From assembly GCA_012514535.1 (NCBI GenBank), contig JAAZAA010000021.1:1-60941 (forward strand): a DNA stretch of 60,941 nt. Direction: 5' to 3'. Position numbers and translations under genes: made by a program. Positions within the stretch are counted from its first letter, which is position 1. Each line of letters starts with the position of its first letter. Source of the stretch: Myxococcales bacterium (GTDB lineage: Bacteria; Myxococcota_A; Polyangia; Polyangiales; Polyangiaceae). The notes under the pieces are model-generated. The model saw only the letters and a list, made by a program, of their open reading frames with translations. It did not search any database and was not told the origin of the DNA. This document shows, piece after piece, positions 3,117-56,028 of the stretch.

Positions 3117-3710
3117 ATGGGAGTGGATCGGGCAGCAGCCCGCGCAGCCATTCGGAGCTTCCTCCTCGCGCTCGGCCAGGATCCGGACGCGGCGGAGCTC
3201 GCGCAGACCGCCGAACGCGTCGCGGACGCCTTCGTCGACGAGCTGCTCGTCGGGTACTCCGTCGACGTCGAGGAGCTGATCCGCTCGGGCTCCGAACCCT
3301 GCACGGCGGAGGTGCGGGACCCCATCGTGCTCGACGAGCTCGCGGTGGTCACCGTGTGTCCGCACCACCTGCTCGTCGCCGAGGGCGTGGCCACGGTGGC
3401 CTACGTGCCCGGCGAGCGGATCGTCGGCTTCGGCACGGTGGCGCGCCTGGTGGACGCCTTGAGCCGCCGCTTGACCCTCCAGGAGCACATCGCGCCGGGG
3501 ATCGCGGACGCCCTCATGACCCACGGGGGTGCCCAGGGCGTCTGCGTGCGGCTGGTCATGAACCACGCGTGCCTGCGCGCCCGCGGCCCGGTGCAGTCGA
3601 GGGCGCGGGCCATCTCCGTCGCGGCCCGGGGGTGCCTCGAAGAGCCCCAACGCTGGGAGGGGTTGCTCCGGGTCTCCAGCGGCGTCGACGAGAGGGGCGA
3701 GACCCGATGA
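3117..3710 (+). CDS. folE: GTP cyclohydrolase I
   Basis: A 197-residue protein matching GTP cyclohydrolase I, which converts GTP to 7,8-dihydroneopterin triphosphate, the first step of folate and pterin synthesis. The zinc ligands appear as Cys81 and His84 (CPHH) and Cys152 (HACLRARG); the guanine-binding Glu123 is in LQEH. The usual CEHH motif reads CPHH here, a noticeable change next to the metal site. The protein is slightly shorter than the roughly 220-residue E. coli enzyme because of a short N-terminus. The start is the ATG at 3117; upstream, in-frame codons lie inside the mlaE region and look non-coding. The stop overlaps the SDR gene (ATGA). Confidence 0.88.
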   Translation: MGVDRAAARAAIRSFLLALGQDPDAAELAQTAERVADAFVDELLVGYSVDVEELIRSGSEPCTAEVRDPIVLDELAVVTVCPHHLLVAEGVATVAYVPGERIVGFGTVARLVDALSRRLTLQEHIAPGIADALMTHGGAQGVCVRLVMNHACLRARGPVQSRARAISVAARGCLEEPQRWEGLLRVSSGVDERGETR

Positions 3711-4390
3711 GCCTCGCCGTCGTCACGGGGGGGAGCCGAGGCATCGGGCGCGCGACCGCGTTCGCCCTGGCGGCCCGCGGGTTCTCCCTGGCGCTGCCCG
3801 CGCGGCCCTCGGCGGCTCGGACCGAGACGGAGGAGGAGCTGCGGCGCCGCGGCGTGAAGCATCGCTTCTTCGACTGCGACCTGACGGAGGGGGCGGAGCT
3901 GACGCGCACCGCCGAGCTCATCCTGGCGGAGTGCGGCGCGCCGGACGTGCTCGTCAACAACGCGGGGATCATCGAGCGGGCGTCCGTCGCCGAGTGCACG
4001 GACGCGAGCTGGGAGCGGCAGCTCGCCCTGAACCTCACGGCGCCCTTTCGCCTGACCCGCAGCTTCCTGCCGGCGATGTTGGAGCGTCGACGGGGACGGA
4101 TCCTGCACGTGGCGAGCATCTCCGCGGTGCTGGGGACGGCCCGCCAGGCCGCCTACCACGCGAGCAAGTGGGGGCTGCTCGGCTTCATGAAGTGCCTGGC
4201 CGAAGAGCTCAGCGACACGGGGCTGATGACCTGCGCGATCCTCCCTGGATCCGTGGAGACGGACATGCTCGCCGGCAGCGGCTTCCCCGCGCGCATGACC
4301 CCCGACGAGGTGGCCCGCACCCTGTGCTTCTACGCGACGGAGGCCCCCCTGGCGCACAACGGGGCGATCGTCGAGATGTTCGGCACGTGA
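3707..4390 (+). CDS. Short-chain dehydrogenase/reductase
   Basis: A 227-residue classical SDR: Rossmann motif TGGSRGIG (residues 7-14), NNAG at 84-87, Ser137/139, Tyr150 and Lys154 (YHASK). It should be an NAD(P)H-dependent reductase or dehydrogenase and looks most like FabG-type 3-oxoacyl-ACP reductases. Because it overlaps folE by 4 bp, a role as a dihydropteridine/dihydromonapterin reductase (FolM-like) is possible. However, the glycine motif is TGxxRGIG rather than the TGxxxRxG of pteridine reductases, so the substrate is left open. It is the last gene of the rightward lipoprotein-mlaE-folE-SDR run. Confidence 0.87.
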   Translation: MSLAVVTGGSRGIGRATAFALAARGFSLALPARPSAARTETEEELRRRGVKHRFFDCDLTEGAELTRTAELILAECGAPDVLVNNAGIIERASVAECTDASWERQLALNLTAPFRLTRSFLPAMLERRRGRILHVASISAVLGTARQAAYHASKWGLLGFMKCLAEELSDTGLMTCAILPGSVETDMLAGSGFPARMTPDEVARTLCFYATEAPLAHNGAIVEMFGT

Positions 4391-4932
4391 CGGCGCGCCC
4401 CCATCGTCGATTCCGCCTCGGTCCACGCAGGCCTCGGTCGACGCAAGCGGTCGCCCCGATAGTCGGTCTCGGGCCGGCGGCGGGCGCACAAAAGTGGAAA
4501 GGGCCCACCACACCCGCTTTCCTCTACCGTTGCTCCCTTCCGGGCCTGGCGGGGTTCGAGGCGCGCTGTTGGCGGACCCGTGAGTCGTGAACCACGATGA
4601 AGTAGCTCACGAACGCGTCCTCGACGGACGCCGTCGCTCGTGGCGACGCGGAGTGGTGCGAGCCAGCTCCTCCTAAATACATAGCGCGGGGGGAGGGGGC
4701 TGTCGACCTCTTTCCGGCTCGTTCGGCTCTTGGCGTCGAGGCCCCGACGCGAGGGCCCGCGAGAAGGCTTCTGCTCGACGCCGGGGTGGCTTCCTTGCGC
4801 GGTGGCGCTGACTGCGACGCGCACCGCGGGCCCCCCGCCAGCCGTCGTGGCGCTCGGCGCTCGCGGCGGCTCAGCGCTCGGAGAGCCCACGGCTCAGTGC
4901 TCGGCGCTCGCGGCGGCTCAGTGCTCGGAGAG
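4391..4932. other. Non-protein-coding interval containing the SRP RNA
   Basis: Apart from the SRP RNA (4499-4581, minus) and the repeat array at 4852-4947, I see no supportable gene here. A short A/T-rich stretch (CTCCTAAATACATAG, around 4669-4683) stands out against the GC-rich background. It lies upstream of the SRP RNA on its strand, but about 90 bases away, which is far for a core promoter. The segment 4590-4850 has no coding-like features on either strand. Confidence 0.6.
4499..4581 (-). ncRNA. ffs: Signal recognition particle RNA, small bacterial (4.5S) type
   Basis: Read on the minus strand, the segment contains the SRP domain IV hallmark: CCCCGCCAGGCCCGGAAGGG followed by AGCAACGGTAG. 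This is the GGAA-tetraloop hairpin with the symmetric and asymmetric internal loops that bind the Ffh M domain. The outer ends (GGGTCCGCC near 4580 and GGTGGGCCC near 4501) pair with G-U wobbles to close a single rod of about 80 nt, as expected for the small bacterial form without an Alu domain. A short T-rich run follows on the minus strand. The RNA partners Ffh and FtsY in co-translational targeting. Exact ends are approximate. Confidence 0.9.
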
Positions 4933-4947
4933 TCAGTGCTCGGAGAG
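4852..4947. repeat. Tandem repeats at the 3' end of the diguanylate cyclase gene
   Basis: A 35-bp unit (4852-4886) recurs almost perfectly at 4898-4932, and its last 15 bases (TCAGTGCTCGGAGAG) are repeated again directly at 4933-4947. On the minus strand each TCA reads TGA. The diguanylate cyclase stop codon at 4933-4935 is thus the first of a series of duplicated gene ends. Confidence 0.85.
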
Positions 4948-5973
4948 CCACACCATGTTCCGACCGCGCCGTTTGGCGACGTAGAGCGCCTCGTCCGCCC
5001 TGCGCACCAGCTCGTCGCTGCTGGTGAGCCGCCCCGACGAGAGGGCCACCCCGACGGACGCGGTCACGTGCAGGTGGTGCGCCCGCCCGGCGCGCGCAGA
5101 AGGCGTGGCGCCCGGACACCAGGGCCCCGTGGAGATCGCGAAGGGGGTCGCGGCCACGACGCTCCGCAGTTTCTCGCCGAGGGTGAGCGCCTTCTCCCGC
5201 CCCTCCACGGCGGCGAGCACCGCGAACTCCTCGCCGCCGACCCGGGCGAGGAGATCCGCGCGCCGGACGGTCTCTCGCAGGCGCGCCGCCAAGTCCTTCA
5301 AGACCAGGTCGCCGGCGGGGTGGCCGTAGGTGTCGTTGACGTCCTTGAAGAGGTCCACGTCGAGGAGCAGCAGGGCCAGAGGGGTGAAATTGCGCCGGTG
5401 CAGCTGAAACTCCCGCTCGAGGACCTCCTCGAAGAGCCGCCGGTTGGGCAGCCCGGTGAGCGGATCGTGCAAGGCCTCGCGCTCCCGCCGCTCGAGCTGA
5501 CGTTCGAGGGCTCGCAGCTGCTCCGCGCGGGCGCGCAGGGCGGACTCGCTCGTCAGCAGCCCGACCAACACCCCGCGAGAGACGACGGGCAAGCGATGGA
5601 TGCCGAGGGAGTCCATCCAGGCGATCGCCTCGTCGAGATCCTGATCCGCGGACACGGTCGACACCGGGTGGACCATGAAGCGAACCACGGGAGCGTGGCG
5701 CCAGTTCACGTCCTGAGCGGCGGCCTCCAGGGCGTCGCGGATCGTGAGGATGCCGATGGGGCGGAGCGGGGGGAACGTCTCCTGCCAGGAGCTCGGCATC
5801 ACGAGGGCCTCGTCGGCGACGCGATTGCGCATGCTCCCGTAGATCGCGCCCAGCGGCGTGTCCGCGGGGACGATCAGCGGTCGCGGCTCCATCGCGTGCT
5901 CGACGGTCAGGCCGTGCATTTCCCAAGTCTGAGCCCCGCGCGGGGGAGGCGCCGGGTTCTGCCGCGTCGTCAC
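4933..5973 (-). CDS. CBS-domain-regulated diguanylate cyclase (CBS-CBS-GGDEF)
   Basis: A 346-residue soluble protein. Two CBS repeats occupy about residues 20-150 (a Bateman module, usually an adenosyl-nucleotide sensor). A short coiled coil follows at 145-170, then a GGDEF domain at 172-340 with the intact active motif GGEEF (246-250). An inhibitory I-site RxxD (RRAD, 237-240) sits at the canonical spacing. It should therefore make cyclic-di-GMP from two GTP with product inhibition, under control of nucleotides bound by the CBS pair. The GTG start at 5973 is used; an ATG at 5919, just before the first CBS repeat, is an alternative. The final codons lie inside a tandem repeat array. Confidence 0.9.
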   Translation of the reverse strand: MTTRQNPAPPPRGAQTWEMHGLTVEHAMEPRPLIVPADTPLGAIYGSMRNRVADEALVMPSSWQETFPPLRPIGILTIRDALEAAAQDVNWRHAPVVRFMVHPVSTVSADQDLDEAIAWMDSLGIHRLPVVSRGVLVGLLTSESALRARAEQLRALERQLERREREALHDPLTGLPNRRLFEEVLEREFQLHRRNFTPLALLLLDVDLFKDVNDTYGHPAGDLVLKDLAARLRETVRRADLLARVGGEEFAVLAAVEGREKALTLGEKLRSVVAATPFAISTGPWCPGATPSARAGRAHHLHVTASVGVALSSGRLTSSDELVRRADEALYVAKRRGRNMVWLSEH

Positions 5974-6047
5974 CTCGGGCCAGCGGCTTCGGGGGGGGGG
6001 CGCCCAGCGTTGCCGACGTCGTCGGCGCCGGGTGTGAGGGGGCGGGC

Positions 6048-7559
6048 TCAGGGGCGCGCGCTGTCCGGCGCTCGCGGGGCGGGGGGAGCCGCGTGGAGCG
6101 GGGGCGGCTCATGGCCGCGTGCTTCGCGCTCCTCGTCTGCGTAGGAGCGCCACTCCTTGTCCACGATGAGCCGCGCGCCCCGGGCGAAGGTCACGTAGGA
6201 CCAGCTCCACTGGAGCAGCACCAAGAGGCGATTCCGGAAACCCGAGAGGTAGTAGATGTGCACGACCAGCCAGGCGAACCAGGCCAGCAGCCCGTGCAGC
6301 TTCAGCGCGCCGCTCTCGAGGATGGCCCGCCGCCGGCCGATGGTCGCCATTTGCCCCTTGTCCCGATACTCGAAGTCGCGTCGCGGCTTGCCCGCGAGCT
6401 CGTCGAGGATGGTGCGAGCGACGTACCTGCCCTGCTGCAGGGCGACCGTCGCCACCCCGGGGAGGGGTTTGCCGTCGGGGCCGAGGGCGTGGGCCTGATC
6501 GCCCGCGACGAAGACCCGAGGGTGCCCGGGGATGGTCAGATCGGGGCCCACGAGCACCCGGCCCGCTCGATCCCGCGGCACGCCGAGCACCGCGCCCGTC
6601 TCGGAGGCACGCACGCCCGCGGCCCAGAGCACCGTGTTCGCGCGGATGCGCTCGCGCCCCACCTTCACGCCGTCGGGGGTCACGTCGCTGACGGGGCTGT
6701 CCGCCCACACCTGCACGCCGATGCGCTCCAGATCGCGGACGGCGGTGGCCGCCAGGTCGTCGGGGAAGCTCTGGAGGATGCGGGGCCCCGCCTCCAGCAG
6801 GATGATGCGGGTGAGCTTCGGGTCGATGCTGCGAAAGTCCTTCGAGAGCGTGTAGCGGCTCATCTCCCCGATGGCCCCGGCGAGCTCGACCCCCGTCGGG
6901 CCCCCGCCGACGATGACGAAGGTGAGCGCCGCGCGGCGCTCCTCCATGTCCTTGGCGAGCTCTGCCGTCTCGAAGGCGAGGAGGATCCGTCGGCGGATCT
7001 CCGTCGCTTGTTCCAGGGTCTTCAGGCCGGGCGCGTGGGGCTCCCAGCCCTCATGCCCGAAGTACGCGTGCTGTGCGCCGGCGGCGAGCAGGAGATAATC
7101 GAAAGGATACGCCTGCTCGTGGGTGTGCACGATGCCCTGGGTGTGCACGACGCCCGCGGCCTCCGGCTCCTCCGGCGCCGTACCCCGCGAGGAGAGGGGC
7201 TGCAGCGTGCCGCCGCCGCCGTCGCCGCCCCCAGCTTCGTGCGCCTCTCCGGTGACGGGGGGCGCGCCGTTCCCGTTGGCGCCGCTCGGCGACCGGCTCG
7301 GTGTGGAGCTCAGGGTGACGTTCGTCACCGCCGCCTGCACCACGCGGATGTTGCGGTAGCGGGACAAGAGCCCACGGATGGGCACGGCGATGTCCGCGGG
7401 GCTGAGGCCCGCCGTGGCGACCTGGTACAGCAAGGGCTGGAAGAGGTGGTGGTTGCGCCGATCGATCACGACGACGTCGAGATCGCGCTCGTTGCCGAGC
7501 CGCTTGGCGCAGTTCAGTCCTGCGAACCCCGCGCCCACGATCACCACGCGCTTCTTCAT
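6048..7559 (-). CDS. ndh: Type II NADH dehydrogenase (NDH-2 family)
   Basis: A 503-residue FAD-dependent NADH:quinone oxidoreductase. The FAD-binding GxGxxG is at residues 8-13 (GAGFAG), the NAD-binding VGGGPTGVELAG near the middle, then AAGVRAS and the late FAD motif VFVAGDQA. A hydrophobic C-terminal region (LLAWFAWLVVHIYYLSGF) fits the membrane-anchoring segment of NDH-2. It should pass electrons from NADH to quinone without proton pumping. The ATG at 7559 is chosen because AAAGGGGA precedes it at good distance; an upstream in-frame start at 7589 lacks a site. A Gly/Pro/Ser-rich insertion at about residues 85-145 has no counterpart in standard NDH-2. Confidence 0.92.
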   Translation of the reverse strand: MKKRVVIVGAGFAGLNCAKRLGNERDLDVVVIDRRNHHLFQPLLYQVATAGLSPADIAVPIRGLLSRYRNIRVVQAAVTNVTLSSTPSRSPSGANGNGAPPVTGEAHEAGGGDGGGGTLQPLSSRGTAPEEPEAAGVVHTQGIVHTHEQAYPFDYLLLAAGAQHAYFGHEGWEPHAPGLKTLEQATEIRRRILLAFETAELAKDMEERRAALTFVIVGGGPTGVELAGAIGEMSRYTLSKDFRSIDPKLTRIILLEAGPRILQSFPDDLAATAVRDLERIGVQVWADSPVSDVTPDGVKVGRERIRANTVLWAAGVRASETGAVLGVPRDRAGRVLVGPDLTIPGHPRVFVAGDQAHALGPDGKPLPGVATVALQQGRYVARTILDELAGKPRRDFEYRDKGQMATIGRRRAILESGALKLHGLLAWFAWLVVHIYYLSGFRNRLLVLLQWSWSYVTFARGARLIVDKEWRSYADEEREARGHEPPPLHAAPPAPRAPDSARP

Positions 7560-7770
7560 CGGCGTCCCCTTTCGGCGGGCGAGCTGCATGTCCCTGCTCT
7601 CGGCCGGCCTCGCAACGGGTTAACGAAGTCAAGTGTGGTCGGTCGGGGCGCCGAAATCCAGGAGGCCCGGAGGATCGGCAACCTGCGTCGCGGTCGGGTC
7701 GTTGTTTCCGGTCGCTTGACGTGCTCACCGGCCGCGCCGAAAACTCGTGCATTCAGCGAATGAGCCATCG

Positions 7771-9744
7771 ATGAAAGATTTTCTCGTCTTGCCCCGCCTC
7801 GTGATCGAAAACGTGACGCCCCTGGTGGACTCGGGCCGGTACCCGCTCAAGCGTCTCGTGGGGGACGCCGTGGAGGTGGGCGCCGACATCTTCAAGGACG
7901 GACACGACCTCATCACCGCGCGCGTCGTGGTGAAGGGCCCGGGGGACAGCAATTTCGCCGCGTACCCCATGGAGTACGATTACCCCAGCGATCGCTGGAC
8001 CGGGCGCTTCAACGTCGACCGCGTGGGCCGCTGGGAGATGGCGATCGAGGCGTGGCCGGATCCGTTCCGGACCTGGCGTGCGGCCCTGGAGAAGCGCATC
8101 GAGGCGGGTCAGGACATCACCCCCGAGCTCCTCGAAGGGGCGTCCCTCGTGCGGCGTCGCGTTCCCCTCGCGCCGGCCTCGGACCGCGAGCCCCTCGAGA
8201 AGGCGGCGCTCGTGCTGGAGGACGTGCAGGCGGACGAGGACGCGCGGCTCCGGGTCGCCTTTTCGAAGACCTTGCTCGAGCTGATGTACGGCACCGTCGA
8301 CGCGCGGGACGCCACGCGCACGGTCTTCTTTCCCATCGTCGTGGACCGCCCGGAGGCGGGTTTCGCGGCCTGGTACGAGCTCTTCCCCCGCTCGCAGAGC
8401 CCGGAGCCGGGTCGTCACGGCACCTTCCGCGACACGGAGCGCAGGATCCCCGAGATCGCCGCGCTCGGCTTCGACGTCATCTACCTGCCTCCGATCCATC
8501 CGATCGGCTTTTCGCACCGCAAGGGACGCAACAACACGCGGGTGTGTGAGCCGGGCGACGTGGGGTCGCCCTGGGCCATCGGCAGCCAGGCGGGGGGACA
8601 CGACGCCGTGCACCCGGAGCTCGGCACCCTCGAGGACTTCCGGCGTCTGGTGAAGACGTGCCGCGAGTTCGGCATCGAGGTGGCCCTCGACTTCGCGCTG
8701 CAGTGCTCCCCGGATCACCCGTGGATCAAGGAGCACCCCGAGTGGTTCTTCATCCGCCCCGACGGCAGCATCCGCTACGCGGAGAACCCCCCCAAGAAGT
8801 ACGAAGACATCTACCCCCTGAATTTCTGGAGCGAGAACGCGGAGGGCCTCTGGACGGCCTGTCGAGACCTGCTGCTGTTCTGGATCGAGCAGGGCGTGAC
8901 GACGTTCCGCGTCGACAACCCGCACACGAAGCCGTTCGCCTTCTGGGAGTGGTGCATCGCGGAGGTGAAGCAACGTCACCCGGAGGTCATCTTCCTGTCG
9001 GAGTCCTTCACGCGCCCCAAGCGCATGTACGGGCTCGCCAAGCTCGGCTTCACCCAGAGCTACACGTACTTCACCTGGAAGAACACGAAGTGGGAGCTGA
9101 CGGAGTTCTTGGAAGAGGTGATGCGGCCGCCGGTGAGCGACTTCTACCGGCCGAACTTCTTCGCCAATACGCCCGACATCCTGCACGAGTACCTCCAGAA
9201 GGGCGGGCGGCCCGCGTTCCGCGTGCGGGCGGTCTTGGCGGCGACGTCGTCGCCGATCTACGGCATCTACTCGGGGTTCGAGCTCTGCGAGAACGAGCCC
9301 GTGCGCGAGGGCAGCGAGGAGTACCTGAACTCCGAGAAGTACGAGGTGCGGGTGCGCGACTGGAACGCCCCGGGCAACATCAAGCAGGATCTGGCCCGCC
9401 TGAACCGCATCCGCCGCGAGAACCGGGCGCTGCAGCTGCAGACGAACCTCGAGATCGTCCCCACGGAGAACGACGACATCCTCGCCTTCCTCAAGTCGGC
9501 TCGCGGCGAGGGGGGGCGCCCCGACAACCACGTGCTGGTGGTGGTGAACCTGAACCCCTTCGAGGCGCGGGAGACGATGGTGCACGTGCCCTTGGCGCGC
9601 ATCGGGCTGGGGAGCGACGAGAGCTACATCGCCCACGATCTGCTGACGGGCACGTCCTACACCTGGCGCGCGGGCCCGAACTACGTGCGCCTCGATCCGC
9701 AGCAGAAGGTCGCCCACGTGTTCCGCTTGGAGCGACGCCCCTGA
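7771..9744 (+). CDS. glgE: Alpha-1,4-glucan:maltose-1-phosphate maltosyltransferase (GlgE)
   Basis: A 657-residue GH13 subfamily 3 protein. GlgE transfers maltosyl units from alpha-maltose-1-phosphate to the non-reducing end of alpha-1,4-glucan. Visible features are the N-terminal beta domain starting LPRLVIENVTP, the GH13 barrel with DVIYLPPIHPIG, the nucleophile Asp382 in FRVDNPHTKP, and the acid Glu411 in FLSESFTRP. Length matches the family (about 660-700). The ATG at 7771 is preferred over GTG 7747, which adds eight residues. It starts an alpha-glucan cluster with glgX and glgB. TreS/Pep2 or GlgM, which supply maltose-1-phosphate, are not in the window. Confidence 0.93.
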   Translation: MKDFLVLPRLVIENVTPLVDSGRYPLKRLVGDAVEVGADIFKDGHDLITARVVVKGPGDSNFAAYPMEYDYPSDRWTGRFNVDRVGRWEMAIEAWPDPFRTWRAALEKRIEAGQDITPELLEGASLVRRRVPLAPASDREPLEKAALVLEDVQADEDARLRVAFSKTLLELMYGTVDARDATRTVFFPIVVDRPEAGFAAWYELFPRSQSPEPGRHGTFRDTERRIPEIAALGFDVIYLPPIHPIGFSHRKGRNNTRVCEPGDVGSPWAIGSQAGGHDAVHPELGTLEDFRRLVKTCREFGIEVALDFALQCSPDHPWIKEHPEWFFIRPDGSIRYAENPPKKYEDIYPLNFWSENAEGLWTACRDLLLFWIEQGVTTFRVDNPHTKPFAFWEWCIAEVKQRHPEVIFLSESFTRPKRMYGLAKLGFTQSYTYFTWKNTKWELTEFLEEVMRPPVSDFYRPNFFANTPDILHEYLQKGGRPAFRVRAVLAATSSPIYGIYSGFELCENEPVREGSEEYLNSEKYEVRVRDWNAPGNIKQDLARLNRIRRENRALQLQTNLEIVPTENDDILAFLKSARGEGGRPDNHVLVVVNLNPFEARETMVHVPLARIGLGSDESYIAHDLLTGTSYTWRAGPNYVRLDPQQKVAHVFRLERRP

Positions 9745-10109
9745 ATCCAGGAGCGACGAACGGTTCGTCGTCGGGAGCACTCGCCCATCGGACCCGTACG
9801 CCTCGCGGGGGGTCGGATGGGCTCGTCCAGCCGCGCGCCTGCTCACGAACCGGTGCCTCTCGGTGATTTTCTGGTCGCGCCGAAGAGCTCCCTTCGGCAA
9901 ACCGATCGTCGCTCGAGGGGCCCTTTGGATCGCTCGGTCCCCGCGGGTGCTCGAGGGCCGAGCGGCGGAGGCACGGAGCAGCAGCAGGGAACCGCTGTAG
10001 GGTGTCTGGGCTCGGGTGTGCCGCAGCGTGGGGGGCGGACTCCGTAGAAACCAGTGGGGGCCCAGGTGCTCTTTGCGCCGGGCTCACCTTTCACTAGCGT
10101 GCCGAGGGC
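9745..10109. other. Intergenic interval, glgE to glgX
   Basis: This 365-base interval holds no gene I can support. Just after the glgE stop is an inverted repeat (GACGAAC/GTTCGTC, around 9755-9769) that could form a hairpin, but no T-tract follows. The rest is GC-rich without recognisable RNA motifs. The length suggests glgX-glgB may have their own promoter, though no convincing -35/-10 pair is visible. Confidence 0.5.
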
Positions 10110-12224
10110 ATGCGCATCTGGCCTGGCAACGCGCTCCGTCTCGGTGCGACCTGGGACGGCGAAGGCGTCAATTTTGCTCTGTTTTCGCAGAACGCGACCG
10201 GGGTGGACCTGTGCCTGTTCGACGCCAACGACCCCACGCGTCAGACCCACCGCATCCCCCTCAAGGAGCGGACGAACCGGATTTGGCATTGCTACCTACC
10301 GGACGTCCGCCCGGGGCAGCTCTACGCCTATCGGGTGCATGGGCCCTACGCTCCCCACCAGGGCCACCGTTTCAACCCCGAGAAGCTCGTGCTCGATCCC
10401 TACGCGCGGGCGATCGCCGGGTACATCGAGTGGCACGACGCGGTGTTCGGGTATCAAATCGGACACCCGGATGCGGATTTGAGCTTCAACCCGACGGACA
10501 GCGCGCCGTATGTGCCCAAGTGCGTCGTGGTGGACGAAGCCTTCACCTGGGGAGGCGATCGCCCCCCCCAGGTGCCCTGGAGCGACACGCTCATCTACGA
10601 GGCGCACGTCAAGGGCATGACCATGCGACACCCGGACGTCCCTCCGCACCTGCGCGGGACGTACCTGGGGCTCGCGTCGGACGCCATCCTCGACCACCTG
10701 CTCTCGCTCGGGGTGACGGCCATCGAGCTGCTCCCCGTCCATCACTTCGCCGTGGACCGCAGACTGCGCGACATCGGGCTCACGAACTACTGGGGCTACC
10801 AGACCCTCGGCTACTTCGCGCCCGACCCCCGCTACGCCACGGGCAACCGCGGCCAGCAGGTGGACGAGTTCAAGACCATGGTGAAGGCGTTTCACCGGGT
10901 CGGCATCGAGGTGATCCTGGACGTGGTGTACAACCACACCGGCGAAGGCAATCACCTCGGGCCCACGCTGTGCTTCCGCGGGATCGACAACGCGTCGTAC
11001 TACCGCCTCGTGCCGCACAACGAGCGGTACTATCAGGACTTCACGGGGTGCGGGAACAGCCTCAACGTGCTGCATCCCCGGGCGCTGCAGCTCGTGCTCG
11101 ACAGCCTGCGCCACTGGGTGGTTGACATGCACGTCGACGGCTTCCGCTTCGACCTCGCGCCGACCCTGGCCCGCGATCCGTTCGAGTTCGACAGCTTCGC
11201 GCGCTTCTTCGGCACGGTGCAGCAGGATCCGGTCTTGAGCCAGGTGAAGCTCATCGCCGAACCCTGGGACATCGGGCCCGGGGGGTATCGCCTCGGCGGG
11301 TTCCCGCCTGGGTGGGCCGAGTGGAATGGCAAGTACCGCGACTCGGTGCGCCGCTTCTGGCGGGGCGACGAGGGCCAGGTGCCCGAGCTGGCGTCGCGCC
11401 TGAGCGGCTCGAGCGACATCTTCCAGGCGAGCGACCGCGGTCCTTACGCCAGCATCAACTTCGTCACCTGTCACGACGGCTACACCCTGCGCGATCTGGT
11501 CAGCTACGAGCAGAAGCACAACCACGCGAACGGCGAAGGCAACCGCGACGGCGACAACCACAACCTCAGCCGCAACTGGGGGCACGAGGGAGAGACCAAG
11601 GCCGCGTGGGTGAACCGCATGCGCGACCGCATGGTGAAGAACTTCCTGGCGACCCTCGCCTTCTCCCAGGGCGTGCCGATGATCAGCCACGGCGACGAGC
11701 TGGGGCGGACGCAGAAGGGCAACAACAACGCCTACTGCCAGGACAGCGAGCTCACGTGGATCGACTGGGATCTCGACGACAACCAGCGTGAGCTGCTCGA
11801 GTTCGCCAGGCGCGTGTTCCGGGTGCTGCGGTCGAACCCGGTGTTCCGTCGGCGTCGCTTCTTCGCAGGCAACCCGGTGACGGACCGGGGCGTGAAGGAC
11901 GTGCAGTGGATGCGCCCCGATGGCCGTGAGATGACGGATGACGACTGGCGCAGCCCGAAGAACCGCATGCTCGGGATGTTGATCCACGGCCGCGCGTCCG
12001 ACGACGTCGACGAGCGCGGTCGTCCGAACATGGGGCAGACGCTCCTCTTGCTGTTGAATTCCAGCAACCGCGCGCGCCAGTTTCGCCTGCCGGATTTGCC
12101 CGAGCGAGGCTACTGGCACGAGCTGGTCAACACCGCACAATCCACTCATCGCGTCCCCAAGGGCACGATGTTGAATGTGGCTCCTCACTCGCTCGTATTG
12201 CTCTGCTACGAAGGTACCGAATGA
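10110..12224 (+). CDS. glgX: Glycogen debranching enzyme (GlgX/isoamylase type)
   Basis: A 704-residue GH13 subfamily 11 enzyme that hydrolyses alpha-1,6 branches. The N-terminal CBM48-like domain (about residues 8-95, with GVNFALFSQNATGVDLCLF) precedes the catalytic barrel. Catalytic residues are Asp348 (GFRFDLA), Glu384 (LIAEPWD) and Asp456 (TCHDGYTL). Conserved VVYNHTGEGN and NHNLSRNWG are also present. Length fits GlgX/TreX (about 660-720). GAGGGC precedes the ATG. The stop overlaps the glgB start (ATGA), so debranching and branching enzymes are translationally coupled. Confidence 0.95.
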   Translation: MRIWPGNALRLGATWDGEGVNFALFSQNATGVDLCLFDANDPTRQTHRIPLKERTNRIWHCYLPDVRPGQLYAYRVHGPYAPHQGHRFNPEKLVLDPYARAIAGYIEWHDAVFGYQIGHPDADLSFNPTDSAPYVPKCVVVDEAFTWGGDRPPQVPWSDTLIYEAHVKGMTMRHPDVPPHLRGTYLGLASDAILDHLLSLGVTAIELLPVHHFAVDRRLRDIGLTNYWGYQTLGYFAPDPRYATGNRGQQVDEFKTMVKAFHRVGIEVILDVVYNHTGEGNHLGPTLCFRGIDNASYYRLVPHNERYYQDFTGCGNSLNVLHPRALQLVLDSLRHWVVDMHVDGFRFDLAPTLARDPFEFDSFARFFGTVQQDPVLSQVKLIAEPWDIGPGGYRLGGFPPGWAEWNGKYRDSVRRFWRGDEGQVPELASRLSGSSDIFQASDRGPYASINFVTCHDGYTLRDLVSYEQKHNHANGEGNRDGDNHNLSRNWGHEGETKAAWVNRMRDRMVKNFLATLAFSQGVPMISHGDELGRTQKGNNNAYCQDSELTWIDWDLDDNQRELLEFARRVFRVLRSNPVFRRRRFFAGNPVTDRGVKDVQWMRPDGREMTDDDWRSPKNRMLGMLIHGRASDDVDERGRPNMGQTLLLLLNSSNRARQFRLPDLPERGYWHELVNTAQSTHRVPKGTMLNVAPHSLVLLCYEGTE

Positions 12225-14446
12225 ACGCCCGCGCCCACGACAACGTATTGAACATCGAGCCCGAGGCACTCGCCGCCCTCCAACGGGTGGAGCACTACAA
12301 TCCACACGGGCTGCTCGGCTCCCACCCGGTGGAGCCCGCCTTTGGGGGCGGTGTGCTGGTGCGTTCGTTCCACCCGGACGCCGAGGGCTGCGACGTGGTG
12401 CTCGAAGGAGGGGAGTCCCGCCCGATGCAGCCGCTCGGCGGCGGCGTCTTCGGACTGCACCTCCCGGACCGCGCGCTGCCGCTTTCCTATCGTCTCCGCT
12501 TCAGCTTTCCCGGGGGGACGACGTGGGAGCTCGTCGATCCCTACCGCTTCCTCCCGACCGTAGGGGAGCTGGATCTCTACCTGTTCGGCGAGGGCACGCA
12601 CCGCCGCCTCTGGCAGGCCTTGGGAGCGCGCCCCATGGAGCTCGACGGGGTGCGGGGGACCGCGTTCACGGTGTGGGCGCCCAACGCCAAGCGGGTGAGC
12701 GTCGTCGGCGCCTTCAACAACTGGGACGGCAGGCTGATGCCGATGCGCTCCCTCGGGAGCTCGGGCGTGTGGGAGCTCTTCGTGCCCGGCGTGGGCGCCG
12801 GTGAGCTCTACAAGTACGAGATCAAGACGCAGATGGGGGATCTGCGCGTCAAGACCGATCCCATGGCGCGGCGCATGGAGTGCCCGCCGCAGACCGCCTC
12901 GATCGTCTTCGAGACCCACTACGAGTGGGGCGATCGAGCCTGGATGGAGGATCGCGCGAAGCGGGACATCACGCGCGAACCCGTGCACATCTACGAGCTG
13001 CACCTGGGCTCCTGGGCGCGGGTCCCCGAGGACGGGTACCGCTCCATGAGCTACCGCGAGATCGCGCCGCGGCTCGTCGAGCACGTGAAGAAGCTCGGCT
13101 TCACCCACGTGGAGCTGATGCCCCTGGCGGAGCACGCCTTCTATCCCTCCTGGGGTTACCAGGTCACCGGGTACTTCTCGCCGACGGCCCGGTACGGGGA
13201 GCCCGACGACCTCAAGTTCTTCGTCGATTACTGCCATCGCCATGGCGTCGGCGTGATCGTCGACTGGGTGCCCGCGCACTTTCCCAAGGACGACTTCGCG
13301 CTGCGGCGCTTCGACGGCACCGCCCTGTACGAGCACGAAGACACGCGACGCGGCGAGCACCCGGATTGGGGCACGCTCATCTTCAACTACGGGCGCCGCG
13401 AGGTGCGGAGCTTCCTCATCGCCAACGCGATCTACTGGCTGAACGAGTTCCACATCGACGGCCTCCGCGTCGACGCCGTCGCCTCGATGCTCTACCTCGA
13501 CTACAGCCGCGAGGAGGGGCAGTGGGTGCCCAACGTGTACGGCGGTCGGGAGAACCTCGACGCCATCGACTTTCTGCGCGCCATGAACATCGCCGTGCGT
13601 GAAGAGGCGCCGGGGGCCTTCACGGTGGCGGAGGAGTCGACGGCCTGGGGCGGCATCACGCGACCCCCGGAGGCCGGCGGTCTTGGCTTCACGTTCAAGT
13701 GGAACATGGGCTGGATGCACGACACTCTGGGCTACTTCCAGAAGGAGCCGGTGCACCGCAAGTACCACCAGGATCAGCTCACCTTCGCGATGCTCTACGA
13801 GTACACGGAGCGCTTCATCAACTCGATCAGCCACGACGAGGTCGTGCACGGCAAGGGCTCGCTGATCGAGAAGATGCCGGGGGACTTCTGGCAGAAGCTC
13901 GCCAACCTCCGGCTTCTGCTCGCCTACCAGGTGACGCGACCGGGCAAGCAGCTCATCTTCATGGGCACGGAGATCGGGCAGCACGGCGAGTGGAACGTCG
14001 ATGGCTCGGTGGATTGGCACCTCGCCGACCACCCCCAGCGGCAGGCGCTGCTCACGTTCATGGCCGAGCTCGGCAAGATGTACGCGGAGCGCCAGGAGCT
14101 CTGGCTCGATGATCCCTCGCCGGAGAGCTTCGAGTGGATCGACTGCTCAGATCGGGACAACTCCGTGCTGGTTTACCTGCGCAAGGTGTGCAGCGCCGGT
14201 CCGGGCGGCGCCCACTGCGTGGTGGTGCTCAACCTCACCCCGGTGCCGCGGGAGGACTATCGCATCGGCGTGCCCCAGGCGGGGCGCTACGTCGAGCGGC
14301 TCTCGAGCGACGATCGGCGCTTCGGCGGGAGCGAGTTCGAGACGATCCGGGAGCTGCACACCGAGCCCATCGCCGCCCACGGCCGGGATCAGTCGCTGCT
14401 GCTGCGCTTGCCGCCCCTCGGGTGCCTGGTGCTCGTCCCGGGCTGA
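12221..14446 (+). CDS. glgB: 1,4-alpha-glucan branching enzyme
   Basis: A 741-residue GH13 subfamily 9 enzyme that forms alpha-1,6 branches in glycogen. The N1 domain comes first (about residues 10-110, VEHYNPHGLLGSHP), then a CBM48 domain (FTVWAPNAKRVSVVGAFNNWDG) and the catalytic barrel. The nucleophile Asp418 is in GLRVDAVASML, the acid Glu471 in VAEEST, and the transition-state Asp in ISHDEVVHGKG. Length equals the E. coli enzyme plus about 13 residues. It lies in an operon with glgX (4-bp overlap). Its last 58 bases may overlap the 3' end of the convergent metalloprotease gene. Confidence 0.96.
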   Translation: MNARAHDNVLNIEPEALAALQRVEHYNPHGLLGSHPVEPAFGGGVLVRSFHPDAEGCDVVLEGGESRPMQPLGGGVFGLHLPDRALPLSYRLRFSFPGGTTWELVDPYRFLPTVGELDLYLFGEGTHRRLWQALGARPMELDGVRGTAFTVWAPNAKRVSVVGAFNNWDGRLMPMRSLGSSGVWELFVPGVGAGELYKYEIKTQMGDLRVKTDPMARRMECPPQTASIVFETHYEWGDRAWMEDRAKRDITREPVHIYELHLGSWARVPEDGYRSMSYREIAPRLVEHVKKLGFTHVELMPLAEHAFYPSWGYQVTGYFSPTARYGEPDDLKFFVDYCHRHGVGVIVDWVPAHFPKDDFALRRFDGTALYEHEDTRRGEHPDWGTLIFNYGRREVRSFLIANAIYWLNEFHIDGLRVDAVASMLYLDYSREEGQWVPNVYGGRENLDAIDFLRAMNIAVREEAPGAFTVAEESTAWGGITRPPEAGGLGFTFKWNMGWMHDTLGYFQKEPVHRKYHQDQLTFAMLYEYTERFINSISHDEVVHGKGSLIEKMPGDFWQKLANLRLLLAYQVTRPGKQLIFMGTEIGQHGEWNVDGSVDWHLADHPQRQALLTFMAELGKMYAERQELWLDDPSPESFEWIDCSDRDNSVLVYLRKVCSAGPGGAHCVVVLNLTPVPREDYRIGVPQAGRYVERLSSDDRRFGGSEFETIRELHTEPIAAHGRDQSLLLRLPPLGCLVLVPG

Positions 14447-45783: not shown

Positions 45784-46743
45784 GTGAGAATTCTGCTCGC
45801 GGACGATGATCCGGTGGATCGAGCGATCCTGACGCGCTGGCTCGAGCGCTGGGGATACCAGGTGACCGCGGCGAGCGATGGGGAGGAAGCGCTGGCGATG
45901 CTCGCGGCGGATCCGTCGATCCGGATCTGCGTCGTGGACTGGGTCATGCCGAAGATCGACGGCGTGGAGGTGTGCCGTCACATCCGGCGCCAGCACCAGG
46001 AGCCGTACGTGTACACGATCCTGCTGACGGGAAAGACCCAGAAAGAGGACGTGGTGCGCGGGATCGAAGCGGGCGCGGACGATTACATCATCAAACCGTG
46101 CAACCCCCTCGAGCTCGAGGTGCGGCTGCGCGCGGGCCGTCGCGTGATCGATCTGCAGCAGGATCTGATCCTGTCTCGGGAGGCGCTCCGCCAGAAGGCC
46201 ATGCGCGATCCCTTGACGGGGCTACTCAACCGCGCTGCCCTGTTCGAGCACTTGGAGAAGGAGCTGACGCGGGCGCAGCGGACGGGGGGCTCCCTGTGCG
46301 CGGTGATGATCGACGTCGACTTCTTCAAGCACATCAACGACGAGCACGGTCACCTGACGGGGGACTCGGTGTTGCGCGACCTGGCGGGGCGCCTCGAGAG
46401 CGTGCTCCGGACCTATGACGCGGTGGGCCGCTTCGGCGGCGAGGAGTTCTTGATGATCCTCGCCAACTGCGACAGCGCTTACGGGCAGGCGGTGGCGGAG
46501 CGGCTCCGTGGTCACCTGGCGGCGCAGCGCGTCCGGGTGGACGGGCGCGAGCTGGCGGTGACCGCGAGCTTCGGGGTGGCCGCCACGGAGAATCGTCGCC
46601 ATTTCGACGCGGAGACCCTCATCCGCGCGGCGGACGCGGCGCTCTACCGGGCCAAGGCCGCGGGCCGGGACCGCGTGTGCGTCGCGCGCTCCGCCGATTG
46701 GCTCGCCCCGCCCCCGAGCAGCCGCGTCGCCCCCCACGCGTGA
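45784..46743 (+). CDS. Response regulator with diguanylate cyclase output (PleD/WspR-like)
   Basis: 319 residues: a receiver domain (about 1-120) with the acidic pocket ADDDP, phospho-acceptor Asp in VVDWVMPKIDG and Lys in IIKPCNP. A linker helix leads to a GGDEF domain (about 145-310) with GGEEF intact. The inhibitory I-site RTYD sits five residues before GGEEF. Phosphorylation should promote dimerisation and cyclic-di-GMP synthesis. The GTG start at 45784 follows GAGGGA at proper spacing; longer upstream frame is non-coding in character. No kinase gene is adjacent, so its partner is encoded elsewhere. Confidence 0.95.
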   Translation: MRILLADDDPVDRAILTRWLERWGYQVTAASDGEEALAMLAADPSIRICVVDWVMPKIDGVEVCRHIRRQHQEPYVYTILLTGKTQKEDVVRGIEAGADDYIIKPCNPLELEVRLRAGRRVIDLQQDLILSREALRQKAMRDPLTGLLNRAALFEHLEKELTRAQRTGGSLCAVMIDVDFFKHINDEHGHLTGDSVLRDLAGRLESVLRTYDAVGRFGGEEFLMILANCDSAYGQAVAERLRGHLAAQRVRVDGRELAVTASFGVAATENRRHFDAETLIRAADAALYRAKAAGRDRVCVARSADWLAPPPSSRVAPHA

Positions 46744-50112: not shown

Positions 50113-50859
50113 CTACCAGTACTTCTCGAAGGTCACGTGCCCCGGCTGGCGAGCGCGATGCCGACGGAGCCCGCGCGCCTCGAGCAGCGGCATCATGTCC
50201 GTGATCATCTGGGGGTTGCCGCAGAGCAGCACGTGGTGATCCTCGGGGGTGAGCGTCGTCTCCGCGGCTCGCTCGAGGGCCCCGTCGCTCAGGAGCGTGG
50301 TGACACGACCCGCCAGGTGCGTGGGGCCGCGCGCCGGGGAGCGGCTCGTCACGGGGACGTAGCTCAGGGGGCGCACCTGGCTCAGCGCTTCGAGCTCCTC
50401 CCGGTAGGCGAGCTGGGCCTCCGTGCGCACGCCGTGGACGACCACGAAGCGCTCGGCGTGCTCCCAGGTGCTCGGCGTGCGCAGCATCGAGATGAAGGGG
50501 CCGAGCCCGGTCCCGGTGGCCACCAACCACAGGCAGCGCGCCCGAGGGACGAAGCGTAGGGTGAAGAAGCCGCGAGGCGTGCTCTCCAGCCAGAGGCGCT
50601 CACCAGGCTGCAGGCGGAAGAGGCTCGGCGTGAGCGCGCCCCCCGCGACGTTCGTCAGGTAGAACTCCAGGGGCTCTCCGGGGGCGGAGGACGCGGAGTA
50701 GCTGCGGCGGACACGCTCACCGTCGAGATCGAGGCCGAGCTGAAAGAACTGCCCCGCCTCGAAGGGGCGCACCTGCGCGTCGATCTGGAGGGTCGCCAAG
50801 CCCTCGTCCCAGTGATGCCAGCGCACCACGCGCCCTTCGACCCAGCCACCCGTCGTCAT
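50113..50859 (-). CDS. fpr: Ferredoxin/flavodoxin-NADP+ reductase
   Basis: 248 residues, the size of bacterial class I Fpr enzymes. The FAD-binding motif is RRSYSASSAP (about residue 51), the NADP-binding GTGLGPFISML (about 116) and CGNPQMI (about 215), with the typical subclass C-terminus VTFEKYW. It exchanges electrons between NADPH and ferredoxin or flavodoxin. It faces pntAB tail to tail. Both work on NADPH balance, but they have separate transcripts. Confidence 0.94.
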   Translation of the reverse strand: MTTGGWVEGRVVRWHHWDEGLATLQIDAQVRPFEAGQFFQLGLDLDGERVRRSYSASSAPGEPLEFYLTNVAGGALTPSLFRLQPGERLWLESTPRGFFTLRFVPRARCLWLVATGTGLGPFISMLRTPSTWEHAERFVVVHGVRTEAQLAYREELEALSQVRPLSYVPVTSRSPARGPTHLAGRVTTLLSDGALERAAETTLTPEDHHVLLCGNPQMITDMMPLLEARGLRRHRARQPGHVTFEKYW

Positions 50860-52224: not shown

Positions 52225-53331
52225 ATGTCCCGGTCCGTCGTTTGCACCCAGTGTGGCCACAGCCTCTCGATGTCGGACGACATCTACAACCGGAGGGTGG
52301 CGGGCAAGGTAGTCACGATCAAGTGCCGTCAGTGCAGCACACCCATCCGCGTCGATGGGCGACACGATGCCCCCTCCGCGGCCCCGCCACCACCCTCCGT
52401 GACACCTCCCATCCCGGAAGCACCGGTGGTCAAGGAGGCGCCCCCGCCCGCGACCCTGAACGATCCCCTCGATCCGTTCTCGCTGCCCGCGCCCGACGAC
52501 GCTCCGCCTCCCGTGCGCGCGCCGCTCCCGAGCCTCGACGAGGTCGTGAGCTCGGCACCGCACATCCCGACGGCGCTCACCGACGGCACACCGGCGCCGA
52601 TGCCCGTCGCAGACATGGCTCCACAGGCTCCGCCCTCGCCACCGTCTCCGGTGGCGAACGCGCGGCCCGCACCACCCGCGCCACCACCTCGCGCCCCCGC
52701 GCCCACGGTCCCCGGCGTCGCTGGCCTGCCCGTAGCGCCCAGCGCACCCGAGGCGGCCGCCGCACCTCCCGCGCCCCCGCCGCGAGCGGCCGCGTCTGCT
52801 CCCGAGAGCGCGAACCCGTTCCTCCCCGTGGACGCAGCACCCGCCGCGCCCGTCCCTGCCGCGCCCGTCCCTGCCGCGCCCATGGCGGCAGCGGCGGCTC
52901 CCGTGGCCGCGCCCGTCGCTCCTCAGGTCGCGGTGGACCTGCCCGGTCCAGCGCCGCTGCCGGACGTGGGCCTCGATCCTGCGACCCTGCGGGATCCCCA
53001 CGCGGCGTTTCGTCGTCGGTCGCCGCGCACCCTGATCCTGGCGGCGGCCGCCGCGGTGGTGATGGGCGGCGTGATTTACGTGGCCAGCAGCGGGGAAGAG
53101 AAGAAGGCCGCGACGCGCGCGCCGAACGTCACGAGCGAGAGCGCCAAGCCCGCCATCGGCGTGTCCGTGGCTCCCTACCGCTCGGACGCCCACGAAACTC
53201 TTCCCGGGAAACCGGCGAGCGCAGGGGACGCACCGTCCCGCAACGAAGACACGACCGGCCAGCCGGCCGCTGAGGTGGGGTCGAGCAAGGATTTCGCAGA
53301 ACGCTTCAAAGCCGCATCGGGTCGGGAGTGA
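52225..53331 (+). CDS. Zinc-ribbon, proline-rich single-pass membrane protein
   Basis: 368 residues. An N-terminal zinc ribbon has Cys7, Cys10, Cys34 and Cys37 (CTQC, CRQC), ending in the STPIRVDG motif seen in myxobacterial zinc-ribbon proteins. About 220 residues very rich in Pro and Ala follow, then one membrane helix at about 268-288 (LILAAAAAVVMGGVIYVAS) and an 80-residue polar C-terminal part. The positive-inside pattern (RRRSPR before the helix) puts the zinc ribbon in the cytoplasm. Its stop overlaps the SiaB-like kinase start (GTGA), so it is likely the sensor or anchor of that pair. Function otherwise unknown. Confidence 0.8.
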   Translation: MSRSVVCTQCGHSLSMSDDIYNRRVAGKVVTIKCRQCSTPIRVDGRHDAPSAAPPPPSVTPPIPEAPVVKEAPPPATLNDPLDPFSLPAPDDAPPPVRAPLPSLDEVVSSAPHIPTALTDGTPAPMPVADMAPQAPPSPPSPVANARPAPPAPPPRAPAPTVPGVAGLPVAPSAPEAAAAPPAPPPRAAASAPESANPFLPVDAAPAAPVPAAPVPAAPMAAAAAPVAAPVAPQVAVDLPGPAPLPDVGLDPATLRDPHAAFRRRSPRTLILAAAAAVVMGGVIYVASSGEEKKAATRAPNVTSESAKPAIGVSVAPYRSDAHETLPGKPASAGDAPSRNEDTTGQPAAEVGSSKDFAERFKAASGRE

Positions 53332-53849
53332 AGAGAACAGAGCCGTCCCTCCGCCCTGGGTCGCTGCGGCCGAGCATCGAGCTCCGCTTCCCGCCGCGAC
53401 GTGGCTTCGTCACTCGTATCGCCAACATGGTGCGCCAGTTCTGCCGTGAGCTCATCGGCGATGGCGACGGGCTCAGCCGCGTGAACATGGCCACCCACGA
53501 GCTCGTGGAGAACGTCGTGAAGTACTCCGCGGGCGGCATGTGTGAGCTCCGGGTGGAGTTCAGGCTCGATGGTCCCACACCGATCGTGAGCATCGAGACG
53601 GCGAACGACGTCGGCGGGGAGGCCCTCGAGGCCCTCGAGCGGCACCTCGTGGCGCTCCAGCAAGCTCCCGATCCCGTGGCGTTCTATGATCGGACCATTC
53701 GCGCCAGCGCGAGCCGCAGACAGGGCTCGGGCTTGGGTCTGGCGCGGATTCGTGCCGAGGGAGAAATGGAGCTCTCACACCGTGTCGCCGGCGGGCGGAT
53801 CACCATTCGAGCCGAGTCGGCGATCAGGGAGGTGCGATGGGCGGGCTGA
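53328..53849 (+). CDS. SiaB/RsbW-type serine-threonine protein kinase (GHKL fold)
   Basis: 173 residues with a HATPase_c_2 fold: N-box Glu58-xxx-Asn62 (ATHELVENVVKYS) and G2 box QGSGLGLARI (132-141). The G1 box (DxGxG) is replaced by SIETANDVGG, and a long helix (about 97-115) separates the boxes, as in SiaB-type (DUF6272-like) kinases rather than classical RsbW. Such proteins phosphorylate a SiaC/STAS partner. The GTG start overlaps the upstream stop (GTGA), and the 3' end overlaps the SiaC/STAS-like gene by 13 bases. Assignment to SiaB rather than another anti-sigma-like kinase is by pattern only. Confidence 0.7.
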   Translation: MKRTEPSLRPGSLRPSIELRFPPRRGFVTRIANMVRQFCRELIGDGDGLSRVNMATHELVENVVKYSAGGMCELRVEFRLDGPTPIVSIETANDVGGEALEALERHLVALQQAPDPVAFYDRTIRASASRRQGSGLGLARIRAEGEMELSHRVAGGRITIRAESAIREVRWAG

Positions 53850-54208
53850 CCTTGGGCGTCTTGCGTCAGAGCTCCTTTGGCATCGAGCCGGCGCTCGACG
53901 GCGCGCGCCTCGTGCTTCAGTTCCGGGGCACGGGTGACCTCGAAGCCGTCGAGCCCCTCGCCGAGTACCTCGATCGCGCCTTCGACGAGGTGCAGCGGCT
54001 GTCCTCCGCGGAGGTCCGCTTCGATTTTCGGGAGCTCGAGTTCATGAACTCGAGCTGCTTCAAGGCGTTCGTCACCTTCATCGAGCGGACGCGCCAGGCG
54101 GGCGGCGTGCCGATCGTGTTCGTGACGGATCCGGCCCATCACTGGCAGCGGCGGAGCCTCGAGGCGCTGCGCAGGCTCGCCATGGGGCGGGTCACCATCG
54201 AGACCTGA
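53837..54208 (+). CDS. SiaC/STAS-like phosphoprotein (partner-switch antagonist)
   Basis: 123 residues. The pattern VRFDFRELEFMNSSCFKAFVTFIERT (central strand, then Ser72/Ser73, then a helix) is that of STAS-fold antagonists and of SiaC (DUF1987-like). In those families the Ser/Thr at this point is phosphorylated by the partner kinase. The start lies within the kinase gene's last codons, giving tight 1:1 coupling. In Pseudomonas the SiaC phospho-state controls a diguanylate cyclase (SiaD); no cyclase is adjacent here, although two are encoded elsewhere in this window. Confidence 0.7.
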   Translation: MGGLTLGVLRQSSFGIEPALDGARLVLQFRGTGDLEAVEPLAEYLDRAFDEVQRLSSAEVRFDFRELEFMNSSCFKAFVTFIERTRQAGGVPIVFVTDPAHHWQRRSLEALRRLAMGRVTIET

Positions 54209-54209
54209 G

Positions 54210-54370
54210 CGTTCGGCGTCGTCGGGCGGCCCTGCGCGGGGGAGCGGGCCGTTCGGCGTCGTCGGGCGGCCCTGCGCGCCGCGCCGCGTTCGAGGCGCCC
54301 CGACGTCACGGGCGCTGCGACGTCGGGGCGCCGACCTCACGGGCGCTGCGACGTCACAGGCGCACCAGGG
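54210..54370. repeat. Two sets of direct repeats between the SiaC-like and KAS III genes
   Basis: A 29-bp sequence (54210-54238) recurs perfectly at 54250-54278. Then a 19-bp sequence TCACGGGCGCTGCGACGTC occurs at 54306-54324 and 54337-54355. A diverged third copy begins with the KAS III stop codon (TCA at 54354-54356). The region contains no gene. Confidence 0.85.
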
Positions 54371-55662: not shown

Positions 55663-56028
55663 TCAGCCGAGCAGGGAGTCCTTGTCCTTCTTGTCGCCGT
55701 CGCAGCCGAGGTCTGCGAAGGAGCTGTCCTTGTCCTTCTTGTCGCCGTCGCAGCCGAGGTCTGCGAAGGAGCTGTCCTTGTCCTTCTTGTCGCCGTCGCA
55801 GCCGAGGTCTGCGAGGGAGCTGTCCTTGTCCTTCTTGTCGCCGTCGCAGCCGAGGTCTGCGAGGGAGCTGTCCTTGTCCTTCTTCTTGTGATCGTCACAG
55901 CCGACCTCCGAGAGGAGACCGTGGACGTCCGAGGTAGGGGCAGCCGCGGCGGAGCTCGCCAGGAGGCCCACGGCGCAGAGGGCGGCGGCGGTCGTGGCGA
56001 TGCGGTGGAATGCAAACTTCTGACTCAT
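55663..56028 (-). CDS. Secreted protein of five 16-residue Cys/Asp/Lys repeats
   Basis: 121 residues. A signal peptide (about 1-30, ending SSAAAA) is followed by a mature part made almost only of tandem repeats. The core is LGCDGDKKDKDSS(L/F)AD, four near-identical units plus a diverged first one (VGCDDHKKKDKD). Each unit has one Cys (44, 61, 77, 93, 109), an acidic GCDGD turn that resembles Ca2+-binding loops, and a Lys/Asp run. At DNA level the unit is exactly 48 bp. I know no named family. Possible roles are metal binding, disulfide-linked surface polymer, or a substrate processed between repeats; none is proven. It has its own terminator and upstream region, so it is probably monocistronic. 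Confidence 0.85.
   Translation of the reverse strand: MSQKFAFHRIATTAAALCAVGLLASSAAAAPTSDVHGLLSEVGCDDHKKKDKDSSLADLGCDGDKKDKDSSLADLGCDGDKKDKDSSFADLGCDGDKKDKDSSFADLGCDGDKKDKDSLLG
55678..55917 (-). repeat. 48-bp coding tandem repeat, five units
   Basis: Units at 55678-55725, 55726-55773, 55774-55821 and 55822-55869 are almost identical. The first two share GCGAAGGAG (Phe) and the next two GCGAGGGAG (Leu). The fifth, 55870-55917, is diverged but keeps the 48-bp length. The pairwise pattern suggests duplication of a two-unit block. Confidence 0.95.

Follow-up and report, generated by a model that had tools for sequence, protein, structure and literature searches.

The window analysed here, a 60,941-nucleotide stretch of DNA from a soil myxobacterium, carries a gene trio that, as judged from sequence, is a putative serine-phosphorylation on/off switch together with a membrane protein resembling a component of a gliding machine. 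The trio and a neighbouring landmark gene are as follows:

52225..53331, + strand: gene for a GltJ/AgmX-like protein (368 aa) with a zinc ribbon, a Pro/Ala linker and a single transmembrane (TM) helix
53328..53849, + strand: gene for a GHKL-fold serine kinase/switch protein (173 aa), slr1658-like, with a SiaB/SpoIIAB fold
53837..54208, + strand: gene for a STAS phospho-protein (123 aa), slr1659-like, with predicted phospho-acceptor Ser72
50113..50859, − strand: gene for an FAD/NAD(P)-binding oxidoreductase, a syntenic landmark for which no functional part is claimed

The three overlapping genes described in an earlier, sequence-only reading of this DNA are all present as open reading frames, with both overlaps: the ribbon gene ends at 53331, the GTG start of the kinase gene lies at 53328 (overlap GTGA) and the ATG of the STAS gene, at 53837, lies 13 bases inside the kinase gene. 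Co-transcription of the three is likely from these overlaps. The start of the ribbon gene at 52225 is backed by orthologues with similar beginnings (MSFPITC, MAFPIKC). Just 3′ of the STAS gene are short GC-rich direct repeats (54211-54363) and then a convergent FabH-like gene. A small, probably secreted protein is encoded at 55663-56028 (−), where a 48-bp tandem repeat (4.3 copies, 99% match) encodes CDGDKKDKDSS(L/F)ADLG units; a short Lys/Asp-rich ORF also lies near the trio in locus L043 (7079-7273).

The kinase and STAS proteins

In profile searches, the best-ranked families are the NCBIfam slr1658 superfamily for the kinase (5e-10, 39.1 bits) and the slr1659 superfamily for the STAS protein (1.4e-11, 44.7 bits), both below the curated cut-off of 100. 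The kinase scores 16.4 bits against the SiaB profile (NF038262, cut-off 85) and 15 bits against DUF6272 (cut-off 26.6), and no DUF1987 or SiaC match is listed for the pair in the Pfam and NCBIfam searches. By profile, the pair thus appears to fall, below cut-off, with the slr1658/slr1659 superfamilies (NF047703, NF047705) rather than with SiaB/SiaC, and its scores below the cut-offs suggest a myxobacterial branch that has diverged from the family. The literature searched contained no experimental work on slr1658 and slr1659 together. A profile check on whether the 123-residue protein lies outside STAS folds gave a match to Pfam STAS over the cut-off (5.6e-5).

AlphaFold models built from alignments of 29-30 relatives (from the window and related loci) have pLDDT values of 91.6 for the kinase and 94.8 for the STAS protein. 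A sequence search of the PDB with either protein gave no real match, whereas a fold search did. The kinase model ranks SiaB (6kko) at the top by structural alignment (Z 16.0, 3.2 Å over 147 residues), followed by SpoIIAB (1th8, Z 14.8; SpoIIAB and Usfx 14.7-14.8), and its strong SpoIIAB/RsbW matches include the sigma-bound entries 1l0o and 8jzt. The STAS model matches RsfB (Z 13.1), RsbV (12.4), SpoIIAA (12.2) and SiaC (12.0). As modelled, both proteins would therefore match solved partner-switch kinases and targets, a likeness of fold that does not decide function.

The kinase has the GHKL fold, N-box (E58..N62) and G2 region (S134-G-L-G137) of a GHKL/STAS partner switch, all intact as the sequence-only reading had described, together with an altered G1 box. 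Residues E58, N62, Y66, N93, Y120, S134, G135, G137, R140 and E144 are invariant among 24-30 relatives. Asn93, which replaces the G1 Asp, is invariant across 24-29 relatives, implying that the altered G1 box is a family-wide trait and not decay.

The STAS protein combines its fold with a Ser at the N-terminus of helix 2, as in a partner switch: in the model, helix 2 (residues 72-87) begins at Ser72, with Ser72-Ser73 at the helix start. Among 24-30 relatives Ser72 is invariant in one alignment and reaches a conservation of 90% or more in the second, and G31, W103, Q104 and L108 are invariant. Mass spectrometry has shown that Thr68 in the SiaC peptide LLYLNTSSIK is phosphorylated by SiaB and dephosphorylated by SiaA (PMC7647112). 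The window protein reads LEFMNSSCFK, and Ser72 aligns with SiaC Thr68 (NSSCFK versus NTSSIK), identifying Ser72 as the predicted acceptor; the earlier placement of Ser72-Ser73 at the STAS/SiaC phosphorylation position is thus supported by both this alignment and a confident model.

In the SiaABCD system of Pseudomonas aeruginosa, SiaB is the kinase, SiaC the phospho-protein, SiaA the phosphatase and SiaD the cyclase. The window pair shares with it the kinase fold and length, a STAS-like target with N-[S/T]-S starting helix 2 and, beside most relatives of the pair, an opposing PP2C/SpoIIE phosphatase. It differs in matching slr1658/slr1659 profiles, in an unlinked phosphatase of the PBP type, in having no linked cyclase and in its linkage to a GltJ-like membrane protein. 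The proposal of a SiaB/SiaC-like switch therefore holds for fold, motif and the GHKL/STAS pairing but not for family membership, where the slr1658/slr1659 profiles score better. With SpoIIAB/SpoIIAA and RsbW/RsbV, the pair shares the fold pair, a phospho-Ser position at the start of helix 2 and, beside most relatives, a SpoIIE phosphatase; in contrast to those systems it has the family-wide Asn at the kinase G1 box and a STAS family signature, W103-Q104-x-R106, and no sigma factor is known here.

A GltJ/AgmX-like membrane protein

The ribbon protein has exactly four cysteines (7, 10, 34 and 37), a linker (residues 46-270) that is 55% Pro+Ala and a single hydrophobic helix at approximately 269-288, in agreement with the earlier description of a Cys4 zinc ribbon, long Pro/Ala linker and one membrane helix. 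The sequence RRRSPR just before the helix is consistent with a cytosolic N-terminus. Orthologues are encoded at L043:3313-5562, L143:2388-4196 and L175:7136-8887. The longest, in L143 and L175, consist of a ribbon, a GYF_2 domain (PF14237, over cut-off), a linker, a TM helix and an AgmX/PglI-type tail, the last matched below cut-off by the NCBIfam model; the L043 orthologue has the GYF domain. The window protein retains the ribbon and TM helix without GYF or tail. Comparison of these sequences suggests that GYF and tail were lost from the window protein, and the tail from that of G041 (the L043 genome).

The NCBIfam GltJ model (NF033761) gives 28 bits for the L143 orthologue, against a cut-off of 450, and no match for the window protein, so that GltJ membership is not reached. 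Against solved structures, the N-terminal part of the L143 orthologue has as its top matches the AgmX/GltJ GYF domain (7z3c, 9e-4) and ribbon (7zok, 9e-3). We interpret the window protein as a probable reduced relative of the gliding protein GltJ/AgmX. It shares with GltJ/AgmX of Myxococcus xanthus the N-terminal Cys4 ribbon, linker and one TM helix, whereas the GYF domain and AgmX/PglI-type tail are shared by the full-length orthologues only. It differs from GltJ/AgmX further in its longer ribbon loop, its sub-cutoff GltJ match and the apparent operon that its gene shares with the kinase-STAS pair.

The ribbon and GYF domains of GltJ/AgmX are thought to be protein-docking modules, and the GltJ ribbon binds MglA. 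A review counts GltJ among the effectors through which the GTPase MglA acts in gliding (PMC12288465); the comparable bacterial ribbon of ZitP binds PopZ, and the AgmX ribbon did not take up a polar position in Caulobacter (PMC5182065). Because the full-length orthologues have the GltJ/AgmX architecture, homology makes docking likelier than redox or zinc sensing as the role of the ribbon protein.

A GltJ-like ribbon-GYF-TM protein without a nearby kinase-STAS pair is encoded in another genome (G044, L139 2976-5240, −). Zinc-ribbon-like matches in L082, L047 and L050 were set aside, as their CxxCH motifs look like those of cytochrome c.

Distribution of the trio and a candidate phosphatase

The order ribbon, kinase, STAS occurs in the window and, as a neighbourhood survey revealed, in three other species: G041 (Polyangiaceae TY_HY_2_bin.55, L043/L081), G121 (L143) and G126 (L175). 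These four species represent three Polyangiaceae genera and form one clade in the kinase+STAS tree (bootstrap 100), nested among SpoIIE-linked pairs. The genes of the trio loci overlap or are closely spaced, and kinase identity to the window protein is ~36-43%. Upstream of the ribbon gene, the oxidoreductase lies on the other strand in every trio locus, as it does in the two congeners, G001 and G002. The congeners keep a ribbon-gene orthologue next to the same oxidoreductase without the pair, which was not found by search in either genome. In G002 the four Cys are kept, the ribbon is altered and an AraC-type gene follows; the G001 orthologue has no Cys. Local alignment of their C-terminal parts scores 74 for both, above all 500 shuffles (maxima 59 and 67). 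Conservation of the ribbon gene beside the pair, a point on which the sequence-only reading depended, therefore extends over four species but not to the two congeners. A genome can thus carry the ribbon gene with no pair beside it, and the two that do so have a changed ribbon or none. That the congeners keep the gene suggests that the ribbon protein has, or had, another use.

Kinase matches occur in 48 of the 317 genomes of the class, with Polyangium, Sorangium, Nannocystis and other myxobacterial records among the named relatives. A single-protein scan of genome contigs found nothing, and an alignment-based scan found 31 loci. With a broader profile that includes the divergent L111 member (raising the count from 35 to 36), a SpoIIE domain lies within 3.5 kb of 36 of 54 distinct related pairs, and of 29 of the 43 pairs whose flanks both extend for 3.5 kb or more. 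An apparent kinase-STAS fusion in L111 was rejected, as the join contains N bases (an undetermined residue) and the STAS N-terminus is missing. The second pair of the window genome is followed directly by an 820-aa LacI-type PBP-SpoIIE phosphatase, and the examined phosphatases beside related pairs carry PBP, HAMP, 4HB_MCP, GAF, PAS or Cache domains, suggesting that the sensor of this pair family is normally on the phosphatase. Locus L051 (G020, Sorangium-type; 3439-13900) has three tandem copies of kinase, STAS and PBP-SpoIIE, a natural set for partner-pair specificity.

No SpoIIE gene lies near the pair in any of the four trio loci. Each trio genome nevertheless encodes a PBP-SpoIIE protein, its domains confirmed, and the 10-16 kb of surrounding sequence that was read contains no kinase-STAS gene (L194, L195, L196 and L198; that of the window genome at G000:C407). 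These orphans adjoin UvrA-, MutH- or TruD-like genes (named by eye), a conserved place. In a comparison covering the four trio genomes and two congeners, they form a clade (98) with the order ((G121,G126),(G041,window genome)), the same as in the pair tree. No SpoIIE match was found in G002, whose draft genome is 89% complete, and G001 has a single one, of the REC-SpoIIE type, with 48.6% identity over 535 residues to another window-genome protein. The window genome also encodes, at L190 (G000:C342), a phosphatase of a second type, with REC, SpoIIE and a C-terminal HATPase-like part, related to this G001 SpoIIE.

These sequence comparisons suggest that the trio phosphatase probably lies at another locus of each trio genome, although two conserved genes with no functional relation, each inherited vertically, could also give congruent phosphatase and pair trees. 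The phosphatase that the sequence-only reading took to be missing is thus unlinked, with an orphan candidate in all four trio genomes; its observation that no cyclase is linked is correct for the window locus, as neither a SiaA-type phosphatase nor a SiaD-type cyclase adjoins the trio. The PBP-SpoIIE phosphatases described in Sorangium cellulosum combine a LacI-type PBP with SpoIIE (PMC2887360). Such proteins are expanded in Polyangiaceae and in many loci lie beside the same kinase-STAS pair, whereas that of the trio genomes stands away from the pair, at a conserved place of its own.

Proposed mechanism and competing explanations

On balance we favour, with modest confidence, a switch of the SpoIIAB/SpoIIAA and SiaB/SiaC type with a GltJ/AgmX-like docking partner and a PBP-SpoIIE phosphatase acting in trans. 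From the observed architecture, predicted folds, conserved catalytic and phospho-site residues, trio conservation and orphan phosphatase, we infer the enzymatic direction, the match of phosphatase to substrate, binding by the ribbon protein and the output. The kinase would phosphorylate STAS Ser72 with ATP, as its fold, motifs and the SiaB/SiaC precedent suggest. The unlinked PBP-SpoIIE protein (G000:C407), with its LacI-type sugar-binding sensor domain, would remove the phosphate when its ligand state changes, and the STAS phospho-state would decide whether the kinase is held or the STAS protein is free for its target. The ribbon protein would most likely be a docking partner, anchored in the membrane, that brings the switch to the envelope or passes its state on to an envelope or polarity machine; this is the weakest step of the scheme. 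Candidates for the output are such a machine, a cyclase or a sigma factor.

The role of the ribbon protein separates this scheme from two others. The sequence-only reading made it the sensor of the system, one that responds to redox state or zinc and controls the kinase. Its four Cys in a cytosolic Cys4 ribbon, the likely co-transcription and the altered (G002) or Cys-less (G001) ribbon of the pair-less congeners would fit such a role. However, the match in architecture and sequence is to GltJ/AgmX, a gliding protein with its ribbon and GYF solved as two small domains distinct from each other, and the phosphatases near 36 of 54 pairs, where examined, bear sensor-type domains of their own (PBP, HAMP, 4HB, PAS, GAF or Cache); we regard a sensor ribbon as very unlikely. 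Somewhat more credible, though still a minority view, is that the ribbon gene is an old neighbour of the oxidoreductase gene, behind which the pair was inserted with no functional link: both congeners keep the orthologue at the same place without the pair, and one event may underlie all four trios. Against this, the trio has been kept in three genera, with genes overlapping or close, despite ~36-43% kinase identity, and neither pair-less congener has an unchanged ribbon.

Two further explanations concern the output. Activation of a diguanylate cyclase in trans by the STAS protein, as in a Sia-like switch, would accord with the SiaC-like site and fold. Four related loci have a GGDEF gene no more than 1.3 kb from the pair, among them L104 (3139-10232), where genes for a PAS-GGDEF protein, kinase, STAS and a 1747-aa protein-kinase-AAA-GAF-SpoIIE protein stand in a row, by sequence an apparent operon holding a Sia-like set. 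Some branches could therefore plausibly have c-di-GMP as their output. The window has a REC-GGDEF gene (45784-46743, +) ~6.7 kb upstream of the pair, but unrelated genes separate the two, and the four GGDEF-linked pairs among 54 include no trio; for the trio, a cyclase target is unlikely. The REC-GGDEF gene is conserved in congener G002 beside pntA/pntB-like genes. A classical anti-sigma/anti-anti-sigma switch, in which the kinase sequesters a sigma factor from another locus, draws on the strong SpoIIAB and RsbW matches, sigma-bound 1l0o and 8jzt included. It seems more doubtful still, as the examined neighbourhood gene lists, read by eye, contain no sigma factor partner and the profile searches rank slr1658/slr1659 above anti-sigma models. 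By structure the kinase is closest to SiaB, which is not known to act as an anti-sigma factor.

The trio is real and conserved, and is a modestly surprising variation on a known partner switch. Polyangiaceae are rich in SpoIIE, kinase and STAS genes with no assigned role, and Sorangium cellulosum has 13 SpoIIE-like phosphatases (PMC2887360). Within this set, the analysis defines a recurrent module of kinase, STAS and PBP-SpoIIE and a branch in which the pair is joined by a gliding-protein-like membrane component and has its phosphatase, probably, elsewhere. A tentative extension, which we hold at low confidence, is that in Polyangiaceae a sugar-sensing phosphatase from another locus governs, via the ribbon-tied switch and perhaps an MglA-like GTPase, how an envelope or polarity machine is assembled or where it is placed. 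If true, a small phospho-switch would link ligand sensing by a PBP domain to the control of envelope or polarity.
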